A stretch of DNA of 47,888 nt from Pseudomonadota bacterium (lineage in GTDB: Bacteria; Pseudomonadota; Gammaproteobacteria; Burkholderiales; JAJZUU01). Below are positions 1,682-47,839 of this stretch, piece after piece. The stretch lies in NCBI GenBank assembly GCA_021848325.1, contig JAJZUU010000016.1, forward strand, positions 1 through 47,888. The letters are read 5' to 3'. The notes below the pieces were generated by a model. That model did not search any database. It saw only the letters and a program-made list of their open reading frames with translations, and had not been told where the DNA came from. Positions within the stretch are counted from its first letter, which is position 1; each line of letters begins with the position of its first letter. Position numbers and translations under genes: made by a program.

Positions 1682-2005
1682 TTATCCCAGTAACGGCAGC
1701 CGACCGCTCAGTCGGGGTTTCCGCATCATGATTCCAATGTACTTTTGCATAATTCCAGGGGACTCTTCGGGGTATTCATACGGTAGTTTTCTTGTTTCTG
1801 GCAATGTTTTCGTCATTTATTCCGGCTTTTTTCACTCGCCGAATCGGGTAAAACGAATACGTGGCAACCCTCCGGGCCGCGGCTGCTTTGCGCACATGCC
1901 GGTGTCGCAAGCCGCTTGTTGTGAATGGCACAACGGCGCGTCTTGCTTCGTGGCCTGTGCGCAAATCAGTCACGGCAAATGTCCAGGTTATTGTTTCTCG
2001 ACGCC
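1682..2005. other. Intergenic region holding a partial repeat copy
   Basis: Between two convergent genes. The first 180 bp (1682-1862) contain a weak hairpin at 1700-1715 (CCGAC/GTCGG followed by only three Ts) and A+T-rich DNA without a gene. The remaining part is the dispersed repeat copy at 1863-2005. Confidence 0.6.
1863..2005 (-). repeat. Truncated copy of the dispersed palindromic element
   Basis: This stretch is the near-identical reverse complement of the first ~142 bp of the element at 47517-47746. It keeps one terminal repeat (1977-2005, ending CGACGCC) and the internal stem (CTGCTTTGCGCACA at 1883-1896, pairing with 1956-1969 with one mismatch). It lacks the second stem-loop and the other terminal repeat, so it is either truncated or a shorter family member. 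Its outer edge abuts the TAA stop of the patatin gene at 2006-2008. An open frame of about 47 residues runs through both copies, but it follows from DNA conservation and has no ribosome binding site. Confidence 0.85.
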
Positions 2006-21654: not shown

Positions 21655-22278
21655 ATGCGAGTTATTTTCGGAATTATCGGCCTGCTGCTGTGTATCAACG
21701 CGCAGGCGGCCAACCCGTTGGTGGAGGTAAAAACCAGCCTGGGAGACATCATGGTCGAACTTTTTCCGGGCAAGGCGCCGATTACCGTGAACAATTTTCT
21801 CGACTATGTGAAAAGCGGCTTCTACCGCGGCACTGTGTTCCACCGGGTGGTGAACCGCTTCGTGATCCAGGGCGGCGGCTACACCCCGGATTTGCGCCCT
21901 AAACCCACCCTCCCGCCGATCCCGGACGAAGCCGACAACGGCCTGAGCAACGATGCCGGGACGATCGCCATGGCGCGAACCCGCGACCCCAATTCCGCAA
22001 CCTCGCAGTTTTTCATCAACGTCGACAGAAACCTGTTCCTCGACCATCACGGCTCGGACCCCGACTATTACGGCTACTGCGTGTTCGGCAAGGTGGTAAA
22101 GGGCATGGATGTGGTGGCAAAAATCGCTGCGGTGCACACCGCTGCCGAGGGTCCCTTCGCCTCCGACGTCCCGGTTCAGCCCGTGGTCATCCAGGAAGTC
22201 ACCCTGATTCCCCAGAAAGCCGCGCCTCAACTGCACCACAAGACACACAAGCGCAAGAAAAGGAAAACCCATGGTTAA
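21655..22278 (+). CDS. ppiA: Periplasmic peptidyl-prolyl cis-trans isomerase (cyclophilin)
   Basis: A 207-residue cyclophilin. The N-terminus [18 protein letters not shown] is a Sec signal peptide with cleavage after AQA. The isomerase core shows the bacterial cyclophilin motifs [51 protein letters not shown] and [15 protein letters not shown]. The last ~20 residues are strongly basic ([14 protein letters not shown]), an extension not usual in PpiA. ATG at 21655 has AGGAGG a few bases upstream. The stop overlaps the start of ppiB by eight bases, so the two genes are translationally coupled. The symbol is assigned by location and similarity. Confidence 0.93.
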
Positions 22279-22762
22279 GCTCCATACCAACTTCGGCACC
22301 ATCACCCTCGATCTGGACGCGGAAAAGGCGCCGGCCACGGTGGAAAACTTTCTCGAGTATGTGAACAGCGGTTTCTTCAACAACACCCTATTTCACCGGG
22401 TCATCGACGGTTTCATGATCCAGGGCGGCGGCTTCGAGCCGGGCATGCAGCAGAAGCCCACCCGCCAGCCCATCAACAACGAAGCCACCAACGGCCTCAA
22501 GAATACGCGCTACACCATCGCCATGGCCCGGACCCCCAACCCGCATTCGGCCACCAGCCAGTTCTTCATCAACGTTGCGGACAACGATTTCCTCAATTTC
22601 ACCGCGCCCAACGCGCAAGGCTACGGCTACTGCGTGTTCGGCAAGGTAGTGGAAGGACAGGAAGTGGTGGACATGGTCAAGAAAGTGAAGACCGGGAACA
22701 ACGCCGGCCACCAGGACGTGCCCCTGGAAGACGTCGTTATCGAAAGCGCCGAAGAGTGCTGA
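22271..22762 (+). CDS. ppiB: Cytoplasmic peptidyl-prolyl cis-trans isomerase (cyclophilin)
   Basis: A 163-residue cyclophilin without a signal peptide, the usual PpiB length. Motifs are [54 protein letters not shown] and [18 protein letters not shown]. Its ATG lies inside the end of ppiA (eight-base overlap), so it is translated from the same message. The close likeness to the upstream protein shows a tandem duplication in which one copy is exported and one is not. The next gene, lpxH, starts about 56 bp on. Confidence 0.95.
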
Positions 22763-29786: not shown

Positions 29787-30656
29787 TCAACCCGCCGGCG
29801 GCAAGCGCAGCATCAGGGTCAGCAGGTTGGTCAGGCGGCCGCGCAATTCGCGCCGGTCCACGATCATATCGATGGCGCCGTGTTCCAGCAGGAATTCCGC
29901 ACGCTGGAAGCCCTCCGGCAGGGTTTCGCGCACGGTCTGCTCGATCACCCTGGGGCCGGCGAAGCCGATCAACGCCCCCGGCTCGGCGATAATGGCGTCT
30001 CCCAGCATGGCGAAACTGGCCGACACTCCGCCCATGGTAGGATCGGTCAGGACCGATATGAACGGCAGCCGGGCCTCGGCCAGCCGGGTCAGCGCCGCGC
30101 TGGTCTTGGCCATCTGCATCAGGGAAAACAGCCCCTCCTGCATGCGCGCCCCGCCACTGGCGGAAAAACACACAAACGGCAGATGGTGCTCGATGCAGGC
30201 GTGGACCCCCCGCACGAAGCGCTCCCCCACCACCGAGCCCATGGACCCACCCATGAACTTGAATTCGAAGACCGCCGCCACCAGAGGCACGGTCTCGACG
30301 CTCCCCTGCATGACCACCAGGGCGTCGTTCTCGTCGGTGCTCATCTGCGCGTCCGCAAGGCGGTCGATGTAGCGCTTGCTGTCCTTGAACTTGAGGATGT
30401 CCACCGGCAGCACTTCGTCCCCGATCTCGTGGCGGCCTTCCCCGTCCAGCAGCATGTCCAGCCGCGCCCGCGCCGAAATGCGGTTATGGTGGCCGCACTT
30501 GGGGCACACCTCCATGTTTTTTTCCAGGTCCGCGCGGTACAGCACCGCCTCGCAGGTGGGGCACTTGCTCCACAGGCCCTCCGGAACCACCTTCTTGCTA
30601 TTGCCGCTGACCTTGCGCTGAATCTTGGGGGGCAATAGCTTCTGAAACCAGCTCAT
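29787..30656 (-). CDS. accD: Acetyl-CoA carboxylase carboxyltransferase subunit beta
   Basis: A 289-residue subunit that, with AccA, transfers carboxyl from biotin to acetyl-CoA in the first step of fatty acid synthesis. The N-terminal zinc ribbon has Cys32, Cys35, Cys51 and Cys54 (CPTC and CPKC). The crotonase-type core includes [38 protein letters not shown] and [18 protein letters not shown] at 30656 has GAGGA about nine bases upstream, directly next to the 50-bp palindrome at 30670-30719. The palindrome separates it from trpA, so its expression may be partly independent of trp. Confidence 0.97.
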
Positions 30657-30669
30657 GTCCTGTCCTCAG

Positions 30670-30719
30670 GGGCTCGTTAATGAATAACTTGGACGTCCAA
30701 GTTATTCATTAACGAGCCC
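30670..30719. repeat. Perfect 50-bp palindrome between trpA and accD
   Basis: Two 25-base arms are fully complementary about the centre 30694/30695 (GGAC|GTCC). I checked all 25 pairs. Each arm aligns without gaps to the terminal repeat of the element at 47517-47746 with 19 of 25 identities, including the shared core AATAACTTGGAC in the same outside-to-inside order. In RNA it would form a long hairpin ending about five bases before the accD ribosome binding site. It has no T-run and is not a standard terminator. Confidence 0.95.
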
Positions 30720-30749
30720 TTAACGTTGTGCGCCGACGAAAGGGACGGC

Positions 30750-31550
30750 CTACTCGCCGTCCATGGCCTCGCGGATGCCTTTCACCAGGGTGGAGAGGTT
30801 CTCCAGCAGCTTGTCCCGGGGAGAGGTCTCGATTTCCTGCACCACGCGGCTGCCGATCACCACGGCGTCGGCGATGCCCGCGATGGCCTTCGCCGTGGCC
30901 GCGTCGCGGATGCCGAACCCCACTCCCACCGGCAATCCGCAACTGGTGCGGATACGCGGTATCTTTTGCGCCACCTCGGCCAGATCGAGGTGGGCGGCAC
31001 CGGTGACCCCTTTCAGCGACACATAGTAGATGAAACCCCGCGCCAACTCGGCCACCTGCCGGAAACGCGCCTCCGGGGTGGTGGGGGACAGCAGGAAAAT
31101 CGGATCCAGGCCGTGCCGCTGGAGTATCTCGACGAATTGCCCGCTCTCCTCCGGCGGGTAGTCCACCACCAGCACGCCGTCCACGCCGCAGGCCTCGGCC
31201 TGCGCCGCGAATGGCTCATAGCCCATGTGCTCGATGGGGTTGGCGTAGCCCATCAGCACCACCGGCGTGGTTTGATCGGTATTGCGGAACTCGGCGACCC
31301 GTCCCAGTACCGTCCCCAGGCCCACGCCGTGCTTCAGGGCGCGTTCGCTGGCACGCTGGATGGTGGGGCCGTCGGCCATGGGATCGGAAAACGGCACCCC
31401 GAGCTCCAGGATGTCCGCCCCCGCGGCCGCCAGGGCGTGCATAATGGGAACGGTGAGGGCGGGTTCCGGGTCGCCGGCGGTAACGAACGGCACCAGGGCC
31501 TTGCGCCCTTGCTTGCGCAGCCGGTTAAAAGCGCTTTCTATGCGAGACAT
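30750..31550 (-). CDS. trpA: Tryptophan synthase alpha chain
   Basis: A 266-residue TIM-barrel subunit that cleaves indole-3-glycerol phosphate to indole and glyceraldehyde 3-phosphate. The catalytic Glu49 ([11 protein letters not shown]) and Asp60 ([10 protein letters not shown]) are at the standard positions; [10 protein letters not shown] and [14 protein letters not shown] are also typical. The open frame extends to 31730, but the added part is a shadow of the trpB end; ATG at 31550 ([12 protein letters not shown]) is the family start. It follows trpB by 52 bp and precedes the palindrome and accD. Indole is channelled to TrpB. Confidence 0.97.
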
Positions 31551-47386: not shown

Positions 47387-47839
47387 ACCGGCGGCCAAGC
47401 CGGACGCAAATATATGATCGTCATGCGCGGCCGGCTACTGCGCCTTATTCGTTCCGATTCCGTTAAGACCCTGCCCGGCGCTCCCTGGCCAGGGTCGGGC
47501 GCGCCTGCTATATTAAGGCGTCGAGAAATAATAAGTTGGACATTTGCCGTGACTGCTTTGCGCACAGGCCACGAAGCAAGTCGCGCCGATGTGTCACTCA
47601 CAACAGGCGGCTTGCGACACCGGCATGTGCGCAAAGCAGCCGCGGCCCGGAGGGTTGCGGCGAATCCGCGCGTCTGCGGCGTTGCGAGCCTTGCATCCAT
47701 CGCGGATTCGCCGCAACAAATGTCCAAGTTATTATTTCTCGACGCCCAAGCCTTGCTCAATGAAGCAAAGCACGCGCGTGCACACGGAAACCGGGTGCTT
47801 CTCGACAGCACGGGGACACCACACTCAGGAGAACATGCC
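47387..47839. other. Intergenic region with palindromic element
   Basis: A 453-bp spacer before fbaB. A GACCCTG/CAGGGTC inverted repeat lies near 47467-47497, and the complex repeat element occupies 47517-47746. The last ~90 bp contain the fbaB leader with AGGAG at 47827-47831. No gene was found. Confidence 0.6.
47517..47746. repeat. 230-bp element with terminal inverted repeats and two stem-loops
   Basis: Terminal inverted repeats 47517-47545 and 47718-47746 match at 28 of 29 bases and end in GGCGTCGAG. Inside are two perfect stems: CTGCTTTGCGCACA (47553-47566) with 47626-47639, and a 17-base arm at 47654-47670 with 47701-47717. The single strand could fold into a three-stem cloverleaf. A truncated inverted copy lies at 1863-2005 and a minimal palindromic relative at 30670-30719. 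No transposase is encoded, so it is MITE-like; no clear target-site duplication is seen. The flank outside the left end is TAA, as in the other two loci. Confidence 0.88.

Follow-up and report, generated by a model that had tools for sequence, protein, structure and literature searches.

What is the exact palindrome that lies between trpA and accD, and how did it come to be there? Within the window, that is, the whole stretch of 47,888 nucleotides analysed here, positions 30670-30719 consist of two 25-nt arms that are 100% complementary, with spacer 0 and mismatches 0. Since the next pair outward (G at 30669, T at 30720) is mismatched, the palindrome is exactly 50 bp long; a chance origin is negligible (about 48,000 positions × 4^-25). 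On the minus strand, the accD start codon ATG (30656) follows 13 nt past the palindrome end, and a Shine-Dalgarno-like GAGGA (30667-30663) lies outside the hairpin. The trpA-accD spacer, from the stop side of trpA (30750) to the accD start codon, measures 93 nt, or 43 nt minus the palindrome. A preliminary description of this DNA had reported a perfect 50-bp palindrome just before the accD ribosome binding site, and both statements were confirmed. The features are the following:

30670-30719, no strand: perfect palindrome, two family-B 25-bp terminal repeats head to head, interior 0 (sequence comparison)
30670-30694, plus strand: left arm, the family-B terminal inverted repeat GGGCTCGTTAATGAATAACTTGGAC, 25/25 against the ends of full-length copies, C80 and C48 among them
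30695-30719, minus strand: right arm, the family-B terminal inverted repeat in opposite orientation (match to family-B ends)
30666-30669, no strand: left flank TCAG at the expected TNA target duplication, differing from the right flank (other copies TTA/TTA, TAA/TAA)
30720-30722, no strand: right flank TTA, the expected TNA-type target site (flank comparison)
29787-30656, minus strand: accD, acetyl-CoA carboxylase carboxyltransferase beta, downstream gene (Pfam Carboxyl_trans, Zn_ribbon_ACC)
30750-31547, minus strand: trpA, tryptophan synthase alpha, upstream co-directional gene (Pfam Trp_syntA, E 1e-87)
47517-47746, plus strand: family-A MITE of 230 bp, the "element" of the preliminary description; interior 77% to family B, inverted; ends differ
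1864-2005, minus strand: partial family-A copy with a single end only (sequence comparison)

The palindrome had been taken for two terminal repeats of the window's own element (47517-47746) that met head to head once the interior had gone, given 19 of 25 matching positions and a shared core. Counted by eye, the arm indeed agrees with the inward-read right end of that element at 19/25 positions, and AATAACTTGGAC is common to both. A search of the source genome (3.0 Mb, 119 contigs), however, revealed that the arm is identical over 25/25 positions to the terminal inverted repeat of another MITE family, family B. Thus, the joined ends stood, but the parent had to be replaced: the window's family-A element was rejected because it matches at 19/25 positions only, against 25/25 for family B. 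The terminal inverted repeats of family B are common to many non-coding copies. Its full-length copies in the source genome, 266 bp each (C80:12653-12918, C48:17274-17539, C72:1617-1882, C70:87140-87405), are flanked by TTA/TTA or TAA/TAA, and 3-bp TNA target-site duplications of these two kinds are found at most family copies. Family A also has many copies in the source genome; their interior, when inverted, is about 77% similar to the family-B interior, but their ends differ. Among the family-A matches listed, none was an interior-free palindrome. Many contigs (C38, C61, C76, C99, C104) start within a copy of this abundant family, which has thus broken the assembly. The genomes compared here are drafts, and their contigs often end within these repeats.

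The palindrome might have occurred nowhere else, a case that the preliminary description had counted against its own proposal; instead, it recurs in the source genome and in other betaproteobacteria. The source genome holds three interior-free palindromes (C5, C25, C19) and a fourth (C111) that is broken by an insertion. The palindrome at C25:3464-3513 is identical to the window copy and flanked by TTA/TTA, while that at C19:22571-22620 carries the variant AACGGATAAC in both arms and a decayed outermost base. At C111:3098-3315 (L012) the right arm is split by an unrelated repeat of about 167 bp with ends like ATCCGCAGATTA/ATCTGCGGAT. An exact 20-mer search gave no match in 84,980 species, and a less strict gapped pattern matched at 10 loci from four assemblies. 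Sulfuricella sp. T08 has a 48-bp palindrome (TAA/TAA), MAG SKS1.bin42 one of 47 bp (TAA/TAA), and MAG FK3.bin53 two, of 46 bp (TTA/TTA) and 45 bp (TAA/TAA). Nitrosomonas halophila Nm1 has about 12 palindromes, about 12 near-full-length copies of 256-268 bp and several intermediates. Judging by the named matches, the source organism probably belongs to Burkholderiales as GTDB defines that order. Most of the palindromes have 3-bp TNA duplications on their flanks. No exact 3-bp target-site duplication surrounds the window copy (TCAG on the left, TTA on the right), a point that weakens the case for its insertion; unequal TNA flanks are also present at some clear MITE copies. No phage or plasmid carrier was found in viral contigs or phages, and one weak match, to the interior only, came from an Azotobacter plasmid.

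The Sulfuricella T08 locus is empty in a congener (GTGAAATAATTCAGCGCTGCC versus GTGAAGTAA[48 bp]TAATCAGCGCTGCC). Sequence was therefore inserted in T08, and the TAA duplicated on insertion doubles as the stop codon of the gene upstream. Comparison of this one locus within the genus showed an empty site or other repeats, and no full element. Among mechanically called ORFs, palindromes follow directly after an ORF at L062:1761 (Sulfuricella T08), L056:5773, L069:1945 and L072:2134; as the TNA target site (TAA) coincides with the stop codon, the latter is preserved on insertion. At the same stop-codon site, T08 congeners carry different inverted-repeat sequences of about 200 bp (L170, L171, L173), a pattern that a hotspot of palindromic insertion would give.

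The DNA fold predicted for full-length elements consists of a terminal stem of about 30 bp and two long internal hairpins of about 95 bp each (-104.7 kcal/mol for an N. halophila copy, -117.2 kcal/mol for a source-genome copy). When the shortened N. halophila elements were aligned to a 267-bp copy as reference, the deletions matched this structure. Hairpin 1 is lost in L087 (deletion 32-124), and hairpin 2 in L085 and L088 (both 129-230) and in L086 (136-240). In the 10 simple N. halophila palindromes both hairpins are gone: 20-30 left bases are kept and the sequence resumes at 237-249, so the two breakpoints lie opposite one another at the top of the terminal stem. All deletions above 150 bp (10/10) fall into this 20-30/237-249 corner, which by our arithmetic represents about 6% of the deletions of such size that spare 18 bp per end. 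The microhomology at these junctions is 0-3 bp; a 4-bp microhomology (ACGT) is possible at the junction in the source genome. Corner and short microhomology together form the pattern that a polymerase jump across the folded stem top would give. As in nearly precise excision, the terminal repeats both survive, and short direct repeats close to the ends mark the limits of the lost interior.

The arms of the palindromes also differ from the ends of interior-containing elements in how they have mutated. Within the outer 18 bp, departures from the N. halophila consensus were symmetric in eight cases and asymmetric in five (8/5) in palindromes of that species, compared with 0/12 in its interior-containing copies (Fisher p 0.0016). 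Half of the symmetric sites (4/8) represent one shared G/A position, which varies on one end only in full elements; the test is small, and without this position the contrast (4/4 versus 0/6) is only suggestive. Palindromes outside N. halophila, scored against the N. halophila consensus, showed seven symmetric departures and one asymmetric. The 8/5 versus 0/12 contrast points to hairpin-templated correction; template switching that rewrites one arm from its partner is the simplest reading of the symmetry. At L069, L073, L079, L090 and L099, one flank reads TTA and the opposite one TAA, so that the two are complementary; correction may reach beyond the arms into the target duplication. The preliminary description had argued that long perfect palindromes are usually unstable and that retention therefore suggests recent origin or function. 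As an argument for function this is weak: 50 bp is short, and hairpin-templated correction would explain the symmetry equally well or better.

We thus consider it probable, at roughly 0.7, that the palindrome is the end product of a collapsed non-autonomous, hairpin-rich MITE that targets 3-bp TNA sites. At full length (about 266 bp), the element, a terminal stem of about 30 bp bearing two hairpins of about 95 bp, would fold while single-stranded during replication. By replication slippage, the polymerase would then jump the hairpin bases at very short direct repeats, so that one hairpin is lost, or both. Loss of both would yield a 45-56-bp palindrome of two terminal repeats with the target duplication still flanking it. 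Later, the palindrome may have been copied against itself by template switching in its own hairpin, and the symmetry would persist without selection, since whatever mutates in one arm would tend to be carried over to its partner. The window copy presumably took this path of collapse, be it in place or before it arrived; its unequal flanks (TCAG/TTA) favor neither course.

Alternatively, in line with the independent minimal unit that the preliminary description had offered as its second option, the bare palindrome might itself be mobile, in which case two abutting terminal repeats would suffice for a transposase and the 50-bp unit would have jumped into the trpA-accD spacer after one founding collapse. 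We regard this as unlikely, although several observations favor it over separate collapses. All four source-genome palindromes share the 8-bp centre GGACGTCC at unrelated sites with different flanks, which counts against independent collapse, and this is not the centre of longest microhomology: the best microhomology in that genome (7 bp) predicts a 54-bp product, which is absent, and GGACGTCC corresponds to the second-best product (4 bp). Moreover, three pairs of N. halophila palindromes share a junction at unrelated sites whose flanks have no homology; for two shared low-homology pairs, simulation with varied microhomology bias gave P 0.0002-0.011, coincidences that lose weight if stem geometry restricts breakpoints strongly, as it may, far beyond the assumption of the simulation. 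One MAG contains a palindrome and no other match to the TIR pattern. Shared centre and shared junctions are more readily explained by the spread of one founder palindrome than by collapses that were all independent. On the other hand, at least seven different junctions occur among the 10 simple N. halophila palindromes, indicating repeated separate collapses as the origin of most. DNA is stiff, so two ends 50 bp apart should pair poorly in cis, and those palindromes in which an arm is damaged (L067, L070) should not move. The broader proposition, that bare head-to-head terminal-repeat pairs of 45-56 bp are still mobilised in trans after collapse and spread to new TNA sites, is a tentative one that we hold to be rather unlikely.

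Could the palindrome instead serve the genes around it? Co-option as an RNA element of the trpA-accD transcript (an RNase III site, a stabilising hairpin or an attenuator, for example) would agree with its place between co-directional genes just before the ribosome-binding motif of accD, with its symmetric arms and with the predicted RNA fold, a 23-bp stem in a region of -60.5 kcal/mol (z -8.3). A Rho-independent terminator was rejected, as there is no T run on either side and a terminator scan finds none there; an Rfam search of the palindrome matched no known RNA family, and the Shine-Dalgarno-like motif remains outside the hairpin. Furthermore, other copies occupy unrelated contexts. The gene order trpA-accD is kept in 29 relatives, all of other families, with a median spacer of 43.5 nt compared with the 43 nt of palindrome-free spacer here, and none of these (0/29) has the palindrome, which argues against a conserved role. 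The preliminary description had named absence in close relatives as evidence against function, and as far as these 29 other-family relatives reach, the palindrome is absent. A role as RNA element thus appears very unlikely. The perfect two-fold symmetry would also suit a protein-binding site or an unrelated regulatory palindrome whose likeness to transposon ends is accidental; this is barely conceivable, being contradicted by the 25/25 identity to MITE ends, the target duplications at most copies and the one empty site. The most economical reading is that the trpA-accD copy, as a collapsed family-B element, is most likely a neutral passenger, by which the mRNA would be lengthened by 50 nt and gain a strong hairpin.

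The proposed collapse resembles several known systems. IS5 / PIF-Harbinger MITEs likewise have TIRs starting with GGGC, TTA/TAA duplications, no coding capacity and many copies, and PHIS elements make 3-bp target-site duplications, TNA included. Unlike these MITEs, the family-B palindromes have no interior at all and no transposase with these ends was found: in the draft genomes searched, matches to PF01609, PF13340 and PF13359 (DDE_Tnp_1, DUF4096, DDE_Tnp_4) were without family-B-type ends. The assignment of family B to IS5 can be taken as a lead. Tourist/Correia-type MITEs are short TIR elements in intergenic DNA, like those described here, but they retain an internal segment. A literature search for MITE palindromes of the interior-free kind returned nothing specific.

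Nearly precise excision of Tn10, a replication-linked process that requires neither RecA nor transposase, leaves a remnant palindrome of about 50 bp. There, as here, the interior is lost between short repeats near inverted ends and the palindrome stays behind with the target duplication in place; copy-choice evidence for this process (Foster, Kleckner and colleagues; d'Alencon et al.) is summarised in PMC12524634. Unlike in Tn10, the events proposed here, as read from sequence comparison, are recurrent natural ones in small hairpin-built MITEs that lose hairpin by hairpin. Correction of quasipalindromes by template switching is documented in E. coli (PMC7202029), and template switching has been proposed as upkeep of RNA hairpins (PMC8794818). 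In both quasipalindrome correction and our case a mutation of one arm is copied to the other, but the former was followed in mutation assays, while we infer the latter from comparison of natural sequences only. The palindromes would provide a natural series, from the full element through loss of one hairpin and of both to corrected arms, that bears on two processes known mainly from laboratory assays, namely DNA loss between inverted repeats and hairpin-templated correction. The series also calls for caution: perfect, covarying intergenic palindromes need not be selected regulatory hairpins, because mutation alone can give symmetric substitutions. If the bare palindrome does move, it would mark the minimum that a transposase requires, and the interior-free units of 45-56 bp would be among the smallest transposable units known.

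Two minor observations were made. In N. halophila (contig C136), L099:1842-1866 is a 25-bp stub (GGGCTCGTTA..TAACGAGCCC). Its symmetry continues outward through the flanking CAGCATATAA/TTATATGCTG, and a T run comes next; the stub resembles a terminator that has developed out of a collapsed element. Elsewhere in the window, two similar genes stand in tandem at 21961-22670, sharing blocks of 73-84% identity at a distance of 553 bp; they are probably cyclophilin-type peptidyl-prolyl isomerases.
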